The notes under the pieces: generated by a model | The model's input: the letters and a program-made list of their open reading frames with translations, nothing else | What the model was told of the DNA's origin: nothing | The model's database searches: none | In this document: piece by piece, positions 3,519-47,898 of the stretch | Layout: every line of letters starts with the position of its first letter | Numbering within the stretch: the first letter of the stretch is position 1 | Program-made: the position numbers and the translations under genes | IMG/VR virus record: IMGVR_UViG_3300007640_000041 | Location: 1 to 55,795 of that record | Reading direction: 5' to 3' (one strand) | Origin: a virus | Length of the DNA stretch: 55,795 nucleotides

Positions 3519-3714
3519 GTATACCAGCCTGTACGATCAGCATGAGAAGATCAAGATGGATACGGTAGAAAAAATCGATGCTGGTGAGGTCTCTCAAGCT
3601 GATGTAGATAAGGTTTCTAAGCAACTTGAGAAGATGCGCAAGAAGATGGCGTCTATCCTTCAGAAGGACGAGAAGAAAGAAAAGAAGGTTGCTAAACTTA
3701 TGGGTAAGTCCTAA
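3433..3714 (+). CDS. small Lys-rich coiled-coil protein (93 aa)
   Basis: Very basic and helical: MMQQKDGPGWLLKKRLGRQL, then a heptad-like C-terminal half (ADVDKVSKQLEKMRKKMAS). ATGs occur at 3433 and 3436. The stop TAA shares one base with the ATG of the endolysin gene. Function is unknown. Its first 28 codons overlap an alternative small frame at 3357-3518, so the true N-terminus is uncertain. Confidence 0.6.
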   Translation: MMQQKDGPGWLLKKRLGRQLKKHNKRNDKYTSLYDQHEKIKMDTVEKIDAGEVSQADVDKVSKQLEKMRKKMASILQKDEKKEKKVAKLMGKS

Positions 3715-4181
3715 TGAATCTTTCCAAGAACTTAACACTTGCTGAGGTCACTAAAAGCACTACTGCTAAGCGCCTTGGCATAGATAACACACCAGATGAT
3801 TGGGTTACAGAAAATCTTCGCCAAGTTGCGATCAACATATTTCAACCTCTTAGGGACAGCTTCGGGTGTCCTATATACGTGTCGTCAGGCTATAGGTCGC
3901 CTGAGCTCAACACTGCTATCGGTGGGAGCAGCCGCAGTCAGCATGTGGAAGGCAGAGCATTTGATCTCGACGCAGACGTATACGGACGTTGTACAAACTC
4001 TCAAATCTTCAAGTGGATTAAAGAAAATCTGGAATTTGATCAGCTCATTTGGGAGTTTGGTGATTCAGATAATCCTGATTGGGTCCACGTCTCTTATGTT
4101 TATGATGGGCTTAATCGTAAAAGGTGCCTCAAAGCTTGCAGAGACGATAACGGAAAGACGTACTACGAAGTGATTCTTTGA
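3714..4181 (+). CDS. M15-family D-Ala-D-Ala / L-Ala-D-Glu carboxypeptidase, probable endolysin
   Basis: A 155-residue zinc peptidase of the M15 fold. Residues about 57-86 carry the signature SSGYRSPELN then SQHVEGRAFDLD, giving zinc ligands His and Asp, and the late WVHVSYVYD supplies the third ligand His. The enzyme cuts peptide cross-bridges of host peptidoglycan at lysis, or acts as a virion muralytic enzyme. The length is typical for a single-domain phage M15 endolysin. There is no signal peptide, so export through the holin at 43244 is likely, although that gene is far away. The ATG overlaps the previous stop (TAATG). Its 3' end overlaps a convergent regulator gene by 19 bases. Confidence 0.85.
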   Translation: MNLSKNLTLAEVTKSTTAKRLGIDNTPDDWVTENLRQVAINIFQPLRDSFGCPIYVSSGYRSPELNTAIGGSSRSQHVEGRAFDLDADVYGRCTNSQIFKWIKENLEFDQLIWEFGDSDNPDWVHVSYVYDGLNRKRCLKACRDDNGKTYYEVIL

Positions 4182-4934: not shown

Positions 4935-5171
4935 ATGGACGGACTTATTAGAAAAATTGTGGTCGGAAGAGACCCTAAGGACGCTATGGCCTACTTTCTT
5001 GGCATGAAGGCTGGGGAAGGCACAGTGTCTGCGATACTTCTTGACGAAGAATTTCTTGTGAGACATGGTAGAATGAGATATCTGGTGTATATTCGCAACA
5101 GCGAAGGCAATAATCTGTGGAAGTCTGTCCACGATATGCCCTGCGTAATTGAATATGACTTAAATTTCTGA
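4935..5171 (+). CDS. hypothetical 78-residue protein
   Basis: Starts one base after the preceding stop: MDGLIRKIVVGRDPKDAMAY. It looks like a small alpha/beta protein with no cysteines paired for metal binding (one Cys) and no membrane span. The last base of its stop is the first base of the next ATG. No family is recognised. Confidence 0.7.
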   Translation: MDGLIRKIVVGRDPKDAMAYFLGMKAGEGTVSAILLDEEFLVRHGRMRYLVYIRNSEGNNLWKSVHDMPCVIEYDLNF

Positions 5172-5770
5172 TGCGTACTTATAATTTCTTTGTGGTTGAG
5201 ATAGATAAGCCACTTAAGGATACTATTAAGACCGAAAGCGGCTTTGAGCTATACGTAGATTCTAGGTTTAACGAGTTTGAGCATAGAACTCAGAGCGGCA
5301 AGGTTGTGGCCGTACCATTTAAATACGATACGGGCGTAAAGGTTGGCGACGAACTATACTTTCACCACCGAGTCGTACTCCAAGAAGGTCAGGCCTTGAC
5401 TGGGTTTGAAAACCACTATCTCGTTTCTTATCACAACAAGGACGTCATTGAGTGTCAGGCTATAGCCTATAAGTGCCAGGATACTGGGGAAGTACACCCA
5501 CTATCTGCTTGGCACCTTATCGAGCAGATTCAAGAAGAGAGAGACGAGAAGTCTGATACTATCGAGCTTGTAGAACTAAAGAAGAAGCCCGTAACTAAGG
5601 GAAAGATTTGTTTCGAGACCGAGTTTACTAGGGAGCTTGGCTTGAACATCGGGGATGTCGTAGTCTTTAAGCAGAACCACGACTACGATGTAGTTGTAGA
5701 CGGGAAGCCATATGGGAGGGTTGCAACTCAAAGCCTAATGTATGTCGAGGAAGAAGTTTACAACGATTGA
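5171..5770 (+). CDS. probable GroES-like co-chaperonin with two beta-barrel halves
   Basis: A 199-residue protein with two stretches resembling the GroES fold. Residues about 1-65 read NFFVVEIDKPL, then RTQSGKVVAVP and VGDELYFHHRVVL, matching the order of GroES elements: an N-terminal strand, a mobile loop with G-[KT]-V and the VGD-x-V-x-F turn. The C-terminal part has GLNIGDVVVFKQNHDYDVVV and a final strand (GRVATQSLMYVEEE). Phage co-chaperonins (T4 Gp31 and T4-like CocO) replace GroES so that the host GroEL folds the major capsid protein. That role is inferred here. The gene is in a small-gene cluster before the terminase. A DUF with similar strands is the alternative. Confidence 0.5.
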   Translation: MRTYNFFVVEIDKPLKDTIKTESGFELYVDSRFNEFEHRTQSGKVVAVPFKYDTGVKVGDELYFHHRVVLQEGQALTGFENHYLVSYHNKDVIECQAIAYKCQDTGEVHPLSAWHLIEQIQEERDEKSDTIELVELKKKPVTKGKICFETEFTRELGLNIGDVVVFKQNHDYDVVVDGKPYGRVATQSLMYVEEEVYND

Positions 5771-42900: not shown

Positions 42901-43257
42901 ATCGGAACACCTTCATTTAGCAGGGGAAAGGCCAAGAAAGCATACGAGTCTGGTAAGAAGTACCAGTTTGTCGAGGATGGGGTTGACTTCAAAATGAAGC
43001 TCAATGCAGAGCAGGTGAATGAAGCCCTTAGACTGGCTGGATCTCTCAGATATCAGGAGTGCCTTGCGCTTGTTGAGTCAGATAAATACAAGCAAATGAC
43101 TGATGAAGAAAGAATGACCGAGTTCGAATCGATTAATTCTAAGTATAACGGACTTGTGGAGTTTGACCCTCAGGGCAATTTCCTCCCACACACGCAATAC
43201 TTGATGGATTTGTTCGAAAAAGAATACATAGAAAGAAAACAGAATGGAGAGCTCTAA
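33946..43257 (+). CDS. giant polyvalent internal virion protein (3103 aa)
   Basis: One uninterrupted frame of 9312 bases, a sixth of the genome. The N-terminus (about 1-200) is helical and acidic. Residues about 770-960 predict long coiled coils. Near residue 1196 VIEEIFHAKIANEIF and later EEELLAEAISVYVA resemble the metal-binding helices of polyvalent-protein zincins, although there is no HExxH. The C-terminal third carries segments typical of large polyvalent proteins (LLTPMSQATNVIANLSNF; MNVPYVRTPANLLEETL), as in LPD38-like domains. It is probably packed inside the head and ejected with DNA to degrade peptidoglycan, protect DNA or reprogram the host. No RNA polymerase active site (DxDGD) is seen, unlike large crAss-like virion RNAPs. 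It overlaps the holin gene by 14 bases. Confidence 0.7.
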   Translation: MNDQYIQLIEDYLAKGVAHPDIIENLGNDVSDDAAKFAADYLKKKDQPEQGGGSESTLDPSLSESAGADQMLDPFGRPITVGLKGVDIVAEKELSQEMVGKYGLEAAANDYTTRADRFNGLESLEQQLAFFKDEKNVRYFPEVYKEVEKQGRTLALNKDLDDAETLADVEQAFEDAGFSSEEYADWLEKTKAENPFVIKSLQAEEEYRARFGAPAKGEYDLSEIYNQLSEKRNKLIAEKEKVVQLWQQKFKEGYFGTDLRFLTAQIETLKESASEALGQMDYALEEMKRERDEDGKKLKDSLPEDSYSIYETYNNAYSVAISKEVEQLIKNAKGDQYDPAETQYVLSQMMRGDMTLNQAIQEYYPDLVYGESGVEFTAQQIRNRVQEEASNAAREQFSSIGKPEDATRIERDLKGILSVDFNDDGYVAPMDIFDSYLAKIPLNSRGFTVGGLLRNFSPGTVNAVRAVYEPIEKAVTATAMMVGDAGGGAWQFVEQLGNNLLIDMDGADEFTDYMAEWKREFEEKGTYFVPKPGGRLGFESTVNQAAYSLPFSIIQFALKRNPYVASAMLMTGLSHDLHARNKDNDWYKAMSETERLVWLAGHTGSEFGFEYLGNRLLFKSGSNLVGPSTGRSFLGESLYKGGQFAKGTAGEIGTELLTLFSGNALDNMMLTDYGVAAKPIFDATEIMNTIQVAGVTSGVIQGPVAGMAYAQNLRDVKDLRLGIDEEISKLRDPNLTEEQSLDIIKGIMAKQSKLAAKFTDMTEYGQWMKENFSDQYDAMMAHSGQIEAILKELKDPNTTQARVSVLKSKLATAMNNEYQASFVGLNKYLGEQAKTMPEDRLKARIQSKSGELDELKAEKAELEQRKRDGEDVSNAIALVDDKITHVSGALTQMQEAKSALEAAQEEGATKEEVAAGFKAANYVTKSEAQEQMLRLAKFAGKEISSETLQATESLNVTEDSVYMLDKDGNVIDMFVHADKKSELGVPVVAKAKDASEQMWAMVQHGYVVVGKNEETGEVALVYDKSGDLLKAFPGIKDSTKGIDHQLIVAKNASVILSKATGNAHKHIKIDSLAGMVAEEVDINGLSEEMQLFYRLNKSAIDTKAALIAANKAERKESDLAKAGNADAKGKAKDRKANKIVELARSKFGLNVMVGNDAQLFNASKRTDYMSGAIIGGFYVRGTNNIYINENASAKDVIEEIFHAKIANEIFSDKRRRARFQNELSSILMRDPFMRALLDVKRSEYEGLYRGRKDAEQMIEEELLAEAISVYVANSDKVDAGTVSGMINYLKSFLGDTEIDVTKDNLEVIMSKLETTLSSGRSLRIKRNEDQEREENSEGTEMMSAYSGKNSFLHKVPVSIKVVQHSDWGESRVRNEQTKQFEDYNHFRAWYNKMSGNGSLSGSIEVKMSYTDADGNVKTLNPPKPYPGREATRPVNAWASRYQRELNEQEKVNKIIDDRVSVLQDQLDILMSSGMDRTAALDLLGWDGRNRNWGARPTQAMVDKAVEATSNYMLDIEGGSPESVVMYSTYNDIVDRMNEVLASNDKETFDIGKYRSDDPKYRESVNKALMDLTDDPKTVKEFQESILGSSAPISNAEIQNFLTAVSDKLHGGKRRDGMSAIHQDRVVDVLEVPFRRLMETERGADFVNFFSDFREGLPNHFQFLADEHGLDRDDLLSAKDLYLGIVAVLSNGNEANINIQLADYVFASYMSGDKASFELAMHQILNVGSYKGISGRPEIQRTKAHQDGIRSLVDMFESDVDLVSHFTSKGSKNRKKPRGRSVEKQKEVVAMDMFGNKIGAFMANLLGDESVLAQDSHFVAEMNRARGIKSTYDINALKDAFASCYNLKEEVEKFYGIKLRKSYMRDDMEALGREVFKRGTKFTRAGKDRFKGFKGWEKEVFKWYTKDVKNRLRRTPKNMDERHLNYTIAKKLGDRLGISVAAVQQLMFYDNHLTQQLFGRGVAAEDVTFADVLDMQLPSSFEMAIPNEAALEEVKARDAYFRDQVVEKDLSGSAPVARDSFSMQELIDADELEVVQISDRAKDPTIGVEDVVTLKRARGGGRFASIGSGIERANAVVLSDVAFPQSKEMSAVGTIDSFANGKDVGSIDITNGIELEFHNGGWYSGGNRVIGAEKAVMTGDTVFAMGEITYSDPELFAYQQAEFTEEEAERFADDPFTADSIIDLMETEGLSFDQAEALFYDRVDMSMSDDEVMFSSQIRGTAARVVDSANFSGDLREMVKNNPENYFDRASFTDIKDAMDHMTTPQLLSYMRADKLGELKGDENYGPLATITLINRYAAAGDNESAAALVADLAATGTSVGRLLRQFAELKTSTPESMASTILHMAERGGKTVNDRTKKQVEEQSRIVFELHRRAEELYARGQKGEDVWDEYKKAIDLLAKEEKQLDIIANKIIERSWGELIRTTIQGNLLTPMSQATNVIANLSNFIPKTMVDVTAFPMEKLLEKTFPDWYRKSKGIDRKMTFSSYLYGMMRFGGGTMEALGEIARGQRNSDLTEWRISRSLMPIHSLMAFWGSDLPEAKSKVADVNQRAKLLFQGTFGMPAESMFRLLGLGDTPFRRYAEGLELSQIADARGLTGKERTQFLRFPPSDVVEQARKRGLEFTFQNDTSMSQVAEYTIGALSRGFGKPFKNVRGFDGEDFFNTIIRMNVPYVRTPANLLEETLTYASPAIAMARFGKHLLDGDARGASENLAKGMIGQSVTMASMYLIANGLISGPPDDDKAVRNLQYDTFPPNCINVSGLKRLLAGEDPAYQAGDEFRNYQKLGILGSVMGAAAVATTKQGAEEVIKNPFGPTELFKRTFGFDNVATLSYMMDQSFLQGLNSTLDVLSISNPDEAEKAWSQWLEGMFKSISAVPLPNTLSALNRTQRTYMPDMRSASMAERLGNTVRDRTFSTGSLPIRYNWKGEPIKQTPDGSGPAAYQLFDVTKAREGSADPVSMEALRIYQETGEAIEVLNTPYFASSVFRHIGTPSFSRGKAKKAYESGKKYQFVEDGVDFKMKLNAEQVNEALRLAGSLRYQECLALVESDKYKQMTDEERMTEFESINSKYNGLVEFDPQGNFLPHTQYLMDLFEKEYIERKQNGEL

Positions 43258-43681
43258 AAAGATAAAAGACACCGCCCTTGGCGGATGGCTGAAGCAGAAA
43301 GCGCCAGGCATCCTCGACACTGTCGGCGACCTGCTGCCAGATCAGGGCGCGCTCGGTATTGTCAAGAACCTACTTGACAAAGAGCCAGGCATAGATCCCA
43401 TCGAAGCCAAGGCTAAGATCGACGCAGAGATTGCATTCCAGAACAACGTAACTGAGCGCTGGAAGGCAGACATGGGTAGCGACATCAAGCTCGCTAAATA
43501 TATACGACCTGTAACTTTGATATCACTTGTAGTAATTTTTATTGCAACCATGATTGCGGATTCTATTGAAAATCTGGCATTTAACGTTAAAGATAGTTAT
43601 GTATCTTTGCTTGAAATACTAATGTTGACATCATTCGGAGCATACTTTGCTGGAAGAACCATAGAAAAAACAAGACGATGA
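43244..43681 (+). CDS. holin-like membrane protein (145 aa)
   Basis: The first 75 residues are hydrophilic and helical; then EKWxADM-like NNVTERWKADMGSD and two hydrophobic segments (about 90-112, VTLISLVVIFIATMIADSI; about 121-140, LLEILMLTSFGAYFAG). This is the known layout of the 3TM-holin or gene-transfer-agent-release family (T-E-K-W-x-x-D-M, then R-P-x-x-L). It would form holes that release the M15 endolysin. The start lies in the 3' end of the preceding gene and the stop overlaps the next ATG (ATGA). Confidence 0.75.
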   Translation: MESSKKIKDTALGGWLKQKAPGILDTVGDLLPDQGALGIVKNLLDKEPGIDPIEAKAKIDAEIAFQNNVTERWKADMGSDIKLAKYIRPVTLISLVVIFIATMIADSIENLAFNVKDSYVSLLEILMLTSFGAYFAGRTIEKTRR

Positions 43682-43890
43682 TCGAAGAATACCTCTCTCA
43701 TTTTGAATTCTTAGTGGTTGCGGGCACTCTCGTAGGCGGGTGGATAAAGTTCCAGGCAGATTACAACAAGCTCAGTTCGCGCGTATATACGCTTGAGGCT
43801 GATAATAGGGAGTTTAAGGATGATGTTAAGCAACTCCTAAAAGACATACAGGAGATAAAGCTACTGCTTGCTAAAAACAAAGTAGAGTAA
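43678..43890 (+). CDS. membrane-anchored coiled-coil lysis accessory (70 aa)
   Basis: One N-terminal span (about residues 9-24, FEFLVVAGTLVGGWIKF) followed by a coiled coil (LSSRVYTLEADNREFKDDVK). This resembles XhlA-like haemolysin or Rz-like spanin subunits. It sits next to the holin and ends in a terminator, so a role in the last step of lysis is likely. A cysteine lipobox is absent. Confidence 0.7.
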   Translation: MIEEYLSHFEFLVVAGTLVGGWIKFQADYNKLSSRVYTLEADNREFKDDVKQLLKDIQEIKLLLAKNKVE

Positions 43891-43891
43891 A

Positions 43892-43914
43892 AAAGGGGCC
43901 GAAGCCCCTTTCTT
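43892..43914. terminator. bidirectional terminator between convergent blocks
   Basis: AAAGGGGC/GCCCCTTT with CGAA loop; T-rich on both strands (TTTCTT on plus, TTTTTT on minus beyond). It separates the late genes from the leftward metalloprotease gene, whose stop is at 43913. Confidence 0.85.
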
Positions 43915-45868
43915 ATTGTACTACTTTTATTATATGTTTGATTCCTTCTACCTCTATTTCTGCGAGGTAAATACCGAATGGGTTAGGTCCAGGCCTCACT
44001 TCTTTTCCGTCTGAGCTATAATATTTCGGATTTAGCCCAAGCTCTTCGAGCTGTCTCACGGTAGGAGGAGGGAGCTCGCCTCCGCTACAGTCGGTTCCGT
44101 ACACAGAGATAAACGTCAGGAAGTCGTCGAGGTCTACGTCGTTGTCTGAGTCTGTGTCGCACACGCAAACTGCACCATCCTTACCGAGCTCCATACAGAT
44201 CTGCAAGAAGTCCTGCAGGTCTACGGCACCGTCTCCGTTAAAGTCTCCGACACAGTCAAGTGGTACAATTTCGGAATCGTAATCCGCTTCTGTACACAAC
44301 ACGTATTCGTGTTCAGACAATCCGCCGTGGACGTTCCCGAGGTTCCATGTAGTGGTGGTGCTACCAGTAGCAGGGTTCTCCGAATCACCATACACCTCGT
44401 ACAAAGTTTCGGTAGCTCCGCCCTCTCCATACTCCATCCAGATATGAACGCCCGTCACGATGTCTGCGTACGTCGTATCAAACACCCACTGCCCCCAGTC
44501 GTATGCGTCGTGTCTAAAGAAGCCAGCGTAACAGCCTTCTGAGAGACAGATCTCGTCGTGAGTAAACAGAGGTTCGTTGGTGAGTCCGTTATCCCATGAG
44601 TCGTACGTCGTGAGGCTACCCCAGTGACCGCCTTTGGCATACACACCGCTTGGGTAGATGGGATCTCCGCAGCACAATCCCTCTTTGTAGAACTTCCATT
44701 GCTCAGACTCTGGCCAGATGTCGTGCTGGATGTCGATGTTCATTACCGCAAGGTTCTTGGGGGCGTGCTCGAAGAACGTCATATCGTTGAGGCTGTTCTC
44801 GTCCTCGCTCCAGTAGATCTCAACAACGCCGTCGTACTCCTGGTTGAACTCTCCGTAGATAGGATCACCAACCACAGTGATGATAGTATCAGATGGTACG
44901 TCTACGGTCGTGGTCCAGATTCCATTCATCATCGTAACCGTGACGTCCACACCGAAGGCGTCGTTAGCGGTCCAGTTGGCGAGTCTCACTTCTGGGTAGA
45001 AGTCTCTGTCGCAATCGAATGCGTTGTCGATAGACAAGATGGCTACGTCCTTGGAATTAGGGTCGATGCAACTGCCTGATTGCCAGACCATTGCCCTTCC
45101 TCCGTTCACCAAGGCTGAGTGCATACGCTCGATCTGACCCTGCGTAAAGTGGTCACGGCACTGACCCGTGTAATCCATGTAGTTCGTGACATCTGCGTCT
45201 TCACAAAATGGTTCTGCTGTACAAGACTCATTGGTGTATGTTGCTGGGGTGTCGCACACCAAGTCGCCTTCCGTGGCGCAGTCATCTTCGGAACAGCCTC
45301 CACCCTCAAACGTATGGTACAGGCCGCAGTAGTGACCGAGCTCGTGCGTCATCATCTTGCTTGCCGCATGCATGCCCTCGATGTACACGCCGTCGTATGG
45401 GGTGATGGCGTCGTTGTTGATCCAACTAAACCCTGCCGTAGGTCCTGGGATAGAGGGGAGGATAAAGATGTTACATGCGTCTCCACGCGTGTTCTGTGAG
45501 GCGTAGCTACCGTAGTCGTACGTCTCATTCGTTCCGAACCAGTACTCGTATGTGAGAGTATCTGGATTGATCATCCACTCTTGGTAGAAGAACTCAGAGT
45601 GCTTGCACGGCACGATATCCGTACCTTCGAATCCGTCTACGATCTGATCCCAGATCTCATCAACATCGTCGGGCGAAACAGCCTCGTTGATGTTGTGCAA
45701 TGCAATAGGCAGGAACTTAGTAAAAACATCTTGATTACGATTTGCCTGCCGCAAACCCATGATGCGCTCGAAGTCGTGATCGACGATAGAGCATTCGTTT
45801 CCACAGACATGCTGAGCACTGACTGTCAACGAAATAAACGAAAGGAGTAGTATGGATAAGTGTCTCAT
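43913..45868 (-). CDS. secreted M43 (pappalysin-like) zinc metalloprotease, cargo gene
   Basis: 651 residues from the ATG at 45868; the longer frame start (45943) runs through promoter and terminator. A signal peptide (MRHLSILLLSFISLTVSAQ) leads a catalytic domain with HELGHYCGLYH (His175, His179, His185; HExxHxxGxxH) and a Met-turn (NYMDYTG). Cysteines are numerous, as in exported proteins. Near residues 540-580 are two Ca-binding repeats of dockerin or EF-hand type (GDFNGDGAVDLQDFL and DTDSDNDVDLDDFL). The C-terminus (about 610-651; YYSSDGKEV ... GIYLAEIEVEG) resembles T9SS-type sorting tails. It should be secreted by the infected cell and cut extracellular or surface proteins. Unusual for a phage; probably acquired from a Bacteroidetes host. 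Confidence 0.85.
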   Translation of the reverse strand: MRHLSILLLSFISLTVSAQHVCGNECSIVDHDFERIMGLRQANRNQDVFTKFLPIALHNINEAVSPDDVDEIWDQIVDGFEGTDIVPCKHSEFFYQEWMINPDTLTYEYWFGTNETYDYGSYASQNTRGDACNIFILPSIPGPTAGFSWINNDAITPYDGVYIEGMHAASKMMTHELGHYCGLYHTFEGGGCSEDDCATEGDLVCDTPATYTNESCTAEPFCEDADVTNYMDYTGQCRDHFTQGQIERMHSALVNGGRAMVWQSGSCIDPNSKDVAILSIDNAFDCDRDFYPEVRLANWTANDAFGVDVTVTMMNGIWTTTVDVPSDTIITVVGDPIYGEFNQEYDGVVEIYWSEDENSLNDMTFFEHAPKNLAVMNIDIQHDIWPESEQWKFYKEGLCCGDPIYPSGVYAKGGHWGSLTTYDSWDNGLTNEPLFTHDEICLSEGCYAGFFRHDAYDWGQWVFDTTYADIVTGVHIWMEYGEGGATETLYEVYGDSENPATGSTTTTWNLGNVHGGLSEHEYVLCTEADYDSEIVPLDCVGDFNGDGAVDLQDFLQICMELGKDGAVCVCDTDSDNDVDLDDFLTFISVYGTDCSGGELPPPTVRQLEELGLNPKYYSSDGKEVRPGPNPFGIYLAEIEVEGIKHIIKVVQ

Positions 45869-45872
45869 ACCG

Positions 45873-45880
45873 CAAAGGTA
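45873..45880 (-). promoter_or_regulatory. promoter TACCTTTG 4 bases before the protease ATG
   Basis: On the minus strand TACCTTTG-CGGT-ATG; it fits TAnnTTTG and leaves only four bases before the start, implying a leaderless mRNA. It is separated from the ribonucleotide reductase gene by a terminator. Confidence 0.6.
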
Positions 45881-45883
45881 TGT

Positions 45884-45920
45884 ATAAAAAAAAGAGGGGA
45901 GATTATGTCTAACCTCCCCT
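45884..45920 (-). terminator. minus-strand terminator after the reductase gene
   Basis: AGGGGAG/CTCCCCT (45914-45920 with 45895-45901) with a 12-base loop, followed on the minus strand by TCTTTTTTTT. It isolates the protease unit from upstream transcription. Confidence 0.85.
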
Positions 45921-45943
45921 CCAGTAGCGAAGTTCCACAGCAA

Positions 45944-46009
45944 TTATCCCTGTGTAACGGTGCCAAGATAATAAATCTGAGACACCCAACATTGATCCAT
46001 CCTCTTCAT
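45944..46009 (-). CDS. possible 21-residue peptide after the reductase
   Basis: Overlaps the reductase stop as ATGA and reads MKRMDQCWVSQIYYLGTVTQ before its stop. It lies just before the terminator. Might be a real coupled microprotein or chance. Confidence 0.2.
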   Translation of the reverse strand: MKRMDQCWVSQIYYLGTVTQG

Positions 46010-47898
46010 CGGACGGGGCATGCGCCTGTTTCACAATCTGAGATCTCGATGTCGTCCATGTTCAGGTGCTCCAACGAAGTAATCGGAGTAACCGACTCAG
46101 ACATTTCAAGCCACTTCTCGTGCGTGATCTCCTCCATCGGAGCCTGATCGAACCCGTGCTCGTTATGCAGCAAAAAGCTGACACTCTTTACGTTATCGTA
46201 GTTTACATCAAGCCAAGCTTTAATTTCTTCAAGCTCATGCTTTCTGTAATAAATGGTTACAGACACAGAGTTGTCTGACCATTCTGCCTGCAGGCGCTTG
46301 ATAACTTCGAGCTGATCGACAGCCGTCATGTCGTCAGCAAACGTGGTATTCTCTGGGAAACTGCAAGGGAAGCTCACAACAACTGTGGAGTGGTCTTCAG
46401 TCCCGTCGAAGTTACGTACGTACTCTACGTGATACCCATTGTCTCGGCACACCTTGACCAATTCGCTATCTGCAGCCATTCTAATTCTCCGAATGTAGTA
46501 CTGGCTGTATCCTGGATGTGCTCCTGGTGTAACGCCAGCAAGTAGAGACAGCGTTCCACTGGGCTTAACTGTCGTAAGCTTGATAGATGTTGGAAATCCG
46601 CAAATTCGAGAGTATTCTTGGTCATATGCTCTAAGGTGATTATACACGGATGGAAGCCAATTTCGCTGCTCTTCTGTCGCCTGAAGGTATCCAGTCACGC
46701 CGATACCCATTCGCATGTTTTTGTGAACGATATCTTCAGTTTCGGGAACAGCGCATTTGATCGCGAGACTATGTTTATTGATGCGGTATAGCAACGTAGC
46801 AACATCCTTGAGCTCTCTCTCCGACTCAATGTTCGGAAGGTAGATCTCCGCCAAGCAGCAGGTCTCAAATGGAGCAAGACTCTGCTCCGCACAGGGGTTG
46901 TACCCCATGACGTTTGGGTCTGGGTAATTAGTTTCACCTGTCCTTCCCATGCGGCGGGAAGCTGTGAGGTTGATGAGTCCATAAGGCTCTCCGTTTCCAT
47001 TGTATCCTTCCCAAAATTCTTCTGGGAGCGTGCTAACATCATCGCACGCCACGCTGTTGTTTGACATGGCTCTCCAGTTGGGGATACCTCCGAGGTCCCA
47101 CCGCTTTGCCCGCAAGTATTCGATGTCGTCATGGTCTCCGATTGCGATTTGTGCAGACCGACGGACGTTCCCAGCCACTACGATCTTACCGATAATGTTC
47201 ATGATGTCCAGACAGTCTACAGGCTTGAGTCTGTTTCCGCTGCGCTCGTTGAGGATGCGGTTTATTTCCTGCATTCCCCAGATCAAGTCGTTAGGGCCTG
47301 AGGCGGTTCCTCCAAAGCCTTTGATAGGTGATCCTGCGGGGCGCACGAGAGACGTGTCGTAGCTAAACCCTTGTCCAGTGAAGAAAGAGGCCTCCAGTAC
47401 GCGCTTCAGGAGCTCTGTCCAGCCCTCACGAGAGTCTGGAACAATGAAGTCTGCGCCAGCATCCTTAACGTGCTTGATGGTCACTTTCTTTTTAACCTTC
47501 GGAAGTTGATAAACATGCTCTCTTTGGATGTTGTAGCCGACTCCGCTTCCTAGCATAAGCATTTCGAACGCCCACGTGAATGGTCGGATTGGCTCATCTA
47601 CGACGACGAAAGCACAGTTCTGCAAAGATGGCAGGCCAAGCTTGTCCACCGTTTTGGTTCCAAGCTGCCACAGGAATCGCCCAGCAACGGTTCCCTTGAG
47701 TTGCATCATCATACGCTTGATGTCTTTCTGGTCGTGCTCGTTGAACTCGCACTTAAGTTGCTTATTGCACGCCTCGATGACGCGATCCACCGTCTCCTCC
47801 CATTCCTCCGTGCGGTCTTTAATGGGGCGCGCATAGGTACGCTTGTAAGTAGCGTAGCCGACCTCGCCCCAGGGTATAAACTCTGGGTTATAGTCCAT
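46006..47898 (-). CDS. nrdJ: class II (adenosylcobalamin-dependent) ribonucleoside-triphosphate reductase
   Basis: 630 residues, resembling the monomeric Lactobacillus-type RTPR but about 100 residues shorter. It has the first redox cysteine in LPSLQNCAFV (about residue 93), the radical-site motif YNPCAEQSL (Asn334, Cys336, Glu338), a loop with TVKPSGTLSLLAG and a C-terminal ACPVR with a preceding CETGAC pair for re-reduction. It reduces ribonucleotides using coenzyme B12 and works without oxygen or a metal cofactor subunit. The phage can make dNTPs from host RNA under any oxygen level, but relies on host B12. It is upstream of the protease gene and ends before a terminator. Confidence 0.9.
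   Translation of the reverse strand: MDYNPEFIPWGEVGYATYKRTYARPIKDRTEEWEETVDRVIEACNKQLKCEFNEHDQKDIKRMMMQLKGTVAGRFLWQLGTKTVDKLGLPSLQNCAFVVVDEPIRPFTWAFEMLMLGSGVGYNIQREHVYQLPKVKKKVTIKHVKDAGADFIVPDSREGWTELLKRVLEASFFTGQGFSYDTSLVRPAGSPIKGFGGTASGPNDLIWGMQEINRILNERSGNRLKPVDCLDIMNIIGKIVVAGNVRRSAQIAIGDHDDIEYLRAKRWDLGGIPNWRAMSNNSVACDDVSTLPEEFWEGYNGNGEPYGLINLTASRRMGRTGETNYPDPNVMGYNPCAEQSLAPFETCCLAEIYLPNIESERELKDVATLLYRINKHSLAIKCAVPETEDIVHKNMRMGIGVTGYLQATEEQRNWLPSVYNHLRAYDQEYSRICGFPTSIKLTTVKPSGTLSLLAGVTPGAHPGYSQYYIRRIRMAADSELVKVCRDNGYHVEYVRNFDGTEDHSTVVVSFPCSFPENTTFADDMTAVDQLEVIKRLQAEWSDNSVSVTIYYRKHELEEIKAWLDVNYDNVKSVSFLLHNEHGFDQAPMEEITHEKWLEMSESVTPITSLEHLNMDDIEISDCETGACPVR

Follow-up and report, generated by a model that had tools for sequence, protein, structure and literature searches.

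A phage-specific family of M43 metalloproteases often encoded beside lysis genes in probable Bacteroidota viruses

The linear IMG/VR virus record IMGVR_UViG_3300007640_000041 (55,795 bases; the whole of this stretch is referred to here as the window) encodes a zinc protease of the M43 (lower pappalysin) family that, to judge from its sequence, belongs to a phage-specific clade lying apart from the Bacteroidota sequences sampled, and that is likely to be exported by the Sec pathway. The gene is under purifying selection, is exchangeable cargo amongst related phages and is frequently found next to holin or endolysin genes. The -7 boxes and the relatives indicate that the host group is probably the Bacteroidota. 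We tentatively favour a role in egress, giving slightly less than an even chance to the reading that an exported zymogen acts on envelope or extracellular proteins as the virus leaves the cell. The features discussed below are collected in Table 1.

Table 1. Features of the window in and around the M43 protease gene
Feature	Position	Strand	Notes
Likely phage endolysin, Peptidase_M15_3, phrog_894	3714..4181	+	separate from protease
Holin-like protein (phrog_3427)	43244..43681	+	E=7e-19
XhlA/Rz-like protein, 70 aa, TM and coiled coil	43678..43890	+	neighbour conserved with long-form proteases
Bidirectional terminator-like stem between convergent genes	43888..43915	both strands scored	
M43 metalloprotease gene	43913..45868	-	651 aa from ATG
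Truncated T9SS-like C-terminal tail	43916..44035	-	residues 612-651; hhalign
Putative dockerin/EF-hand-like Ca loop pair	44081..44254	-	residues 539-596
Second beta-rich domain	44279..44749	-	about residues 374-530; AF2 model
CARDB/Ig-like beta domain	44759..45061	-	about residues 270-370; AF2 strands 275-352
Pfam Peptidase_M43 core	45110..45409	-	residues 154-253, profile match
Met-turn NYMDY	45170..45184	-	residues 229-233; consensus from PMC6949598
Zinc site HELGHYCGLYH	45314..45346	-	residues 175-185
Cys22-Gly23, candidate cysteine switch of short pro-segment	45800..45805	-	C22 invariant; function inferred
Predicted signal peptide	45815..45868	-	residues 1-18; cleavage before invariant Q19
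TACCTTTG, Bacteroidota-type -7 box	45873..45880	-	4 nt before ATG, TAnnTTTG motif
Intrinsic terminator between reductase and protease genes	45893..45922	-	13-bp stem and T-run
Adenosylcobalamin-dependent ribonucleotide reductase	46006..47898	-	TIGR02505 E=5e-111; upstream neighbour of protease

The original prediction, a secreted-type zinc protease of 651 amino acids with an HELGHYCGLYH zinc site and a Met-turn, is borne out. The ORF matches the Pfam Peptidase_M43 profile far above its cut-off (E=2.8e-18; 66.8 bits against 23), PF05572 is matched by all 40 of the phage homologs compared, and these homologs display zero variation at H175, E176, H179, H185, M231, D232 and Y233, so that the protein can be classed by sequence as an M43 protease and proteolysis can be predicted. 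The span first proposed for it (43913-45920) needs trimming: the ORF itself ends at 45868 and the stretch to 45920 holds the promoter and terminator. A TTG start at 45943 was dismissed, since translation from it would run through the terminator.

The nearest solved structure by sequence is ulilysin. An AF2 model of moderate confidence (pLDDT 69.5; weak around residues 186-226, with approximate domain borders) has PAPP-A2, PAPP-A and mirolysin as its best PDB matches in Foldseek (E 1e-9 to 2e-6), which points to a pappalysin fold. Lower in the list are the CARDB domains 3idu and 2kl6; the CARDB-like domain was tentatively placed behind the catalytic region by size and strand order. Further towards the C-terminus are two putative calcium loops (D542..D553 and D571..D582), the first and last Asp of each being invariant in the 40 homologs. 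The calcium-binding repeats originally proposed are upheld as motifs but not as a profile-defined domain: EF-hand profile hits in the window protein fall below the Pfam cut-off, allowing no Dockerin type I or EF-hand assignment, and amongst the homologs Dockerin_1 is matched by six of 40 and a GC-type dockerin by five of 40 (E up to 0.01). Putative lipoproteins encoded near M43 genes (L036 9231-9959, L068 9129-9848, L064 4249-4905 and L071 4477-5112) contain DLLDFLxVYG, a motif similar to the second of the dockerin-like repeats in the proteases.

The N-terminus of the protease, MRHLSILLLSFISLTVSAQ, resembles a signal peptide both on inspection and by our own heuristic, and Q19 and C22 are unchanged across the 40 homologs; Sec export is likely, in line with the signal peptide first noted. 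In the window protein C22 is followed by glycine, within a pro-segment that AF2 modelled without confidence. Mirolysin is secreted in zymogen form, with Cys23, part of a Cys-Gly motif, blocking the enzyme, and is also subject to a calcium switch (PMC6949598). On this precedent, the invariant C22 and the calcium loops make a latent, calcium-dependent enzyme plausible.

The T9SS-like C-terminus, another element of the original prediction, is a weak point of it. In hhalign comparisons, the tail of the long-form proteases aligns with the C-terminal domains of bacterial M43 proteins with a probability of 69.7 and a score of 27 (30 column shuffles scored 11 or less); the match spans the last 44 columns of the bacterial M43 T9SS-type tails, with the PNP motif missing. 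Against this, the T9SS HMMs TIGR04183 and PF18962 find no match in the 40 homologs (E up to 0.01), and most family members do not have the tail, short forms mostly ending after the dockerin-like pair. The same HMM library does match proteins encoded after the holin in relatives (see below), though below its cut-off, and a T9SS profile that included the full-length tails of this cargo did not hit the window protease. Passage of the window protease across the outer membrane by T9SS is, at most, weakly suggested.

The protease gene is a real, phage-borne gene. Its junction with the reductase gene is also found in L011 (the two proteins being 95% and 97% identical) and its junction with the XhlA-like gene in L002 and L020; these contigs come from different metagenomes. 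Being independent, they rule out the discontinuity with the phage that would betray an assembly chimera, and refute host contamination likewise; nothing was found in favour of either, and we regard the chance of either as negligible. Against contamination, too, the protease gene has the composition of its same-strand neighbours (GC 0.512, compared with 0.506 for the reductase gene and 0.49-0.52 in the three longest of them). The deviating base composition of a moron is not seen, therefore, and nor is there any sign of recent foreign origin. Amongst homolog pairs sharing 80-99% identity, most dN/dS values lie at 0.04-0.16 and all within 0.02-0.27, those above 0.2 coming only from the L010 fragment and the L030/L042 pair; for the closest pair, the window and L011, the value is 0.043 over 128 codons. 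Taken together, the recurrent junctions, low dN/dS and invariant residues identify an intact phage gene under purifying selection. In L010 (3597-5596) the protease is split between two overlapping frames (486 and 191 aa), owing to a frameshift or an assembly error.

A profile scan of viral contigs confirmed 81 M43 loci; the 80 that were kept fall into 44 clusters when grouped at 90% identity. A single branch, with support of 100/95, separates 37 phage sequences from 26 Bacteroidota sequences in the catalytic-region tree. Ascertainment limits this result: phage patterns were used to collect the phage sequences, and the bacterial ones are a sample from 395 Bacteroidota genomes. The latter source was used because the scan patterns proved to be phage-specific, giving one weak hit only on genome contigs. 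An initial tree had a truncated bacterial row (L104) amongst the phages and the final tree was built without it; L031, L075 and L077, from other contigs, form a separate group. By sequence, then, the window protease is a member of a phage-specific M43 clade and not an isolated oddity, and comparison with Bacteroidetes M43 proteases, the check first proposed, places the phage sequences on a branch of their own. Five family members tested have no PHROG assignment, and GenBank phages yielded one weak match, to an unverified 7.6-kb record, and no clear member. In BFVD, ulilysin-like proteins of giant viruses are the only convincing M43 matches. The papers searched included none on phage M43 proteases or on metalloproteases in lysis. 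Beside another M43 subfamily, in different phages, lies a gene for a second secreted protein with C-D-[LIM]-E-I following its signal peptide (L031, L077, L159, L167, L185 and L190).

The surroundings of the gene link it to lysis. Of 39 dereplicated loci in which both flanks are present, 22 have a holin, XhlA-like or M15 endolysin gene within 300 nt of the protease; 10,000 draws of other genes from the same loci gave 2.2 on average and eight at most, in a test that overstates independence given the mutual kinship of the loci. The protease gene is thus linked to holin and endolysin genes in the manner of a lysis cassette component. The arrangements differ: holin followed by protease with a 4-nt overlap (L081, L035, L079 and others), holin-XhlA-protease (L054), protease-XhlA-M15 (L003, L008, L013 and L021) and M15-protease (L069 and L070), 4-nt overlaps with the holin, the XhlA-like or the downstream gene being common in the relatives. 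In the window the arrangement is convergent, with the protease on the opposite strand to the holin. The protease tree groups L070 (M15-protease) with two holin-protease loci, L039 and L055, and it seems from this grouping that the gene has moved between phages and settled anew beside a lysis gene. In some 17 of the 39 loci no recognised lysis gene adjoins the protease, which lies, for example, beside a GroEL or QueE-like gene; a GroEL-like gene is found 33-35 nt downstream of M43 in L033, L048, L051, L057, L062, L063 and L065. That the protease is itself the endolysin was dismissed: an M15 endolysin is encoded elsewhere in the window, and in long-form relatives M15 is often found two genes downstream.

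A second survey, independent of the protease, was centred on the 80 nearest relatives of the window holin. An M43 gene lies no more than ~3.5 kb downstream of the holin in 21 of these, 17 on the holin strand and four on the opposite strand, and so is not kept throughout the relatives sharing the holin, as a lysis cassette component would be. The slot immediately after the holin is occupied by a metallophosphatase (13 loci), an XhlA-like protein (8), M43 (8) or TM proteins (6), and is unassigned in 29 of the 80. At seven further loci (L112, L128, L134, L146, L157, L168 and L173) it encodes a large secreted repeat protein ending in a T9SS-type tail whose PF18962 matches (E 7e-6 to 2e-4) lie just below the cut-off; these proteins, 691-844 aa in those read, overlap the holin gene by 4 nt. 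Short exported proteins of ~104-122 aa with a thioredoxin-like appearance are encoded between holin and cargo in L121, L127, L149, L172, L186, L188 and L190. In L183 the holin is separated from the reductase by 409 nt, apparently an empty site.

Predicted signal peptides are found in 38 of 183 genes within 1.6 kb after the holin versus 16 of 498 others (p 4e-12), a value that overstates the case, as 20 of these 38 are M43 genes and near-duplicates of loci stayed in the set; the heuristic used is simple and detects 37 of 44 proteases. Since the protease is absent from most of the holin relatives, and non-protease proteins occupy the slot, it is probably not essential for lysis: it is exchangeable cargo, probably late and in a hotspot for exported proteins adjoining the lysis genes. 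More broadly, though this is less likely than not, Bacteroidota phages might share such a holin-adjacent hotspot, in which genes for exported proteins (M43 proteases of several kinds, repeat proteins with T9SS tails and thioredoxin-like proteins) are exchanged, with the dying cell secreting a virus-chosen set that alters its surface. Were this so, the secreted set would break down or coat that surface, and exported proteases would be a lysis-stage tool in addition to holin, endolysin and spanin.

Transcription of the gene in the window appears to be separate. The TAnnTTTG motif is the Bacteroidota -7 consensus. A box of this type precedes the protease ATG (Table 1), so close as to imply a very short leader or a leaderless mRNA; equivalent sites are TATTTTTG in L011 and TATCTTTG in L020, with TATCTTTG also present somewhat farther upstream of the ATG in L019 and L012 and no such box before the gene in L002. 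Boxes of this type would occur by chance ~18 times per window strand, giving a ~1-2% probability of one near a given start. A sigma-70 promoter was sought near the gene and dismissed, no site being found. By motif, then, the protease gene of the window clade probably has its own promoter, as originally suggested, and the terminator upstream of it, a strong one that ends the reductase transcript at 45893, and the bidirectional terminator-like stem behind it are present at 45893-45922 and 43888-43915. These features, together with presence and absence amongst relatives, agree with the description of the gene as a moron. An autonomous unit is not what is seen in the wider family, however, most relatives having the protease in the lysis-gene region, often with 4-nt overlaps. 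The term is partly right: it fits the exchangeable, separately transcribed state found here but leaves out the gene's membership of a phage family associated with lysis genes. A different motif, TATATTTG, occurs nine times on the + strand of the window (1719, 4626, 8778, 20891, 21244, 22129, 25568, 31911 and 33921), most copies shortly upstream of genes, and never on the - strand; these copies are a probable phage promoter family.

How might such a protein act? In the egress reading, a Sec-exported and probably latent (cysteine-switch) M43 protease of the phage-specific clade, encoded as exchangeable cargo in the hotspot beside the holin, would reach the periplasm or cell surface, become activated there and degrade host envelope or extracellular matrix proteins around the time of lysis, aiding release of virions from both the cell and the remaining debris. 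Production would be late, together with the holin, in most relatives; in the window phage and the relatives nearest to it the gene is inverted and probably has a promoter to itself, which would uncouple its timing. The family and fold, the invariant catalytic residues and C22, the low dN/dS and the separate clade are consistent with this, as are the lysis-gene linkage (22/39), its differing arrangements across phage types, the enrichment of signal peptides after the holin and the result of a simple scan for lipobox spanins, which found none in the window phage. Weighing against it are the presence of M43 in just 21/80 holin relatives, the sharing of the slot with non-protease proteins, the ~17/39 loci without a lysis neighbour, the strand of the window gene, opposite to the holin, and the separate M15 endolysin.

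Some of these observations bear on other roles. The predicted export signal, the own promoter of the window clade and the T9SS-tailed secreted proteins of the holin-proximal hotspot, which suggest surface-acting cargo, would also suit an exported protease that cleaves outer-membrane receptors or adhesins, and such cleavage would stop superinfection and the binding of progeny to debris. We consider this remodelling, with its proposed benefit, rather unlikely; the lysis-gene link suggests late rather than early action on any putative receptor or substrate. A more improbable role is that of a moron serving the host or its environment, the protease, as first proposed, freeing nutrients from extracellular protein or detaching cells during infection. 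Likeness to secreted Bacteroidota M43 enzymes such as cytophagalysin and mirolysin, accessory distribution and a transcription unit of its own speak for it. No integrase was found amongst ~40 window ORFs scanned with PHROGs, however, in agreement with the original observation that the phage shows no lysogeny genes, and with no such gene amongst these ORFs a dying host would gain little; repeated placement in the lysis region, a phage-specific clade rather than recent acquisition from a host, and the lack of the T9SS-like tail in most family members also count against it. It is very improbable that the enzyme is carried by the virion to digest capsule or matrix at entry: L003-like phages do have the gene in the late region directly after virion-type genes, but an N-terminal signal peptide is present, tail and capsid domains are lacking, and the majority of homologs come after the holin and not after tail genes.

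With the lower pappalysins (MEROPS M43B; mirolysin, ulilysin and cytophagalysin) the window protease has in common HEXXHXXGXXH, the Met-turn NxMDY and Cys-Gly near the mature N-terminus (PMC6949598), and mirolysin and PAPP-A are amongst its Foldseek matches. In cytophagalysin the catalytic domain is followed by Ig-like domains (PMC11674741), as appears to be so in the window protease. Unlike the lower pappalysins, the window protein is phage-encoded, groups apart from the 26 sampled bacterial sequences and has a CARDB-like domain and a dockerin-like pair after the catalytic domain. Precedents exist for both phage-borne T9SS cargo and a prophage-borne secreted protease. The cryophage, a Bacteroidota phage, has variable genes for proteins of the host secretion pathway (PMC7468147); that cargo has complete T9SS domains and comprises glycoside hydrolases and a PA14 protein, whereas the window cargo is a protease with a truncated tail, at a site that, unlike those of the cryophage genes, adjoins the holin. 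The Bfgi2 prophage of Bacteroides fragilis encodes the C10 protease bfp3 (PMC2873492), likewise a secreted-type protease on a Bacteroidota (pro)phage, but this is a cysteine protease of an unrelated sequence class and the phage is temperate. Maribacter phage Molly, an isolated flavobacterial phage, encodes a zinc metallopeptidase of 199 aa (PMC8776804), for which a lipoprotein domain and a peptidase domain are described; a tblastn search of P0001 against GenBank phages gave no match in Molly. Mycobacteriophage LysB (PMC6116114) is an accessory enzyme that, besides the endolysin, attacks an outer envelope layer; LysB is lipolytic and acts on mycolic acids, and may serve as a functional analogue for the role proposed here.

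Little is known about the way in which Bacteroidota phages cross the outer membrane of their hosts and the protein-rich host surface; unimolecular spanins are the sole type that a survey reports for these phages (PMC12596118). A phage-specific family of predicted exported proteases that recurs beside holins and endolysins, yet is missing from PHROGs and almost absent from GenBank phage records, offers a specific candidate for an additional factor acting at lysis or modifying the cell surface, and the holin-adjacent locus is a place to seek more of them.

Two further features of the window lie far from the protease gene. A GroES-like co-chaperonin of 199 aa is encoded at 5171-5770, with no GroEL amongst the ORFs scanned, and at the very start of the contig (1-60) there is an imperfect inverted repeat (tatatactctctt ... 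agagagtatata).
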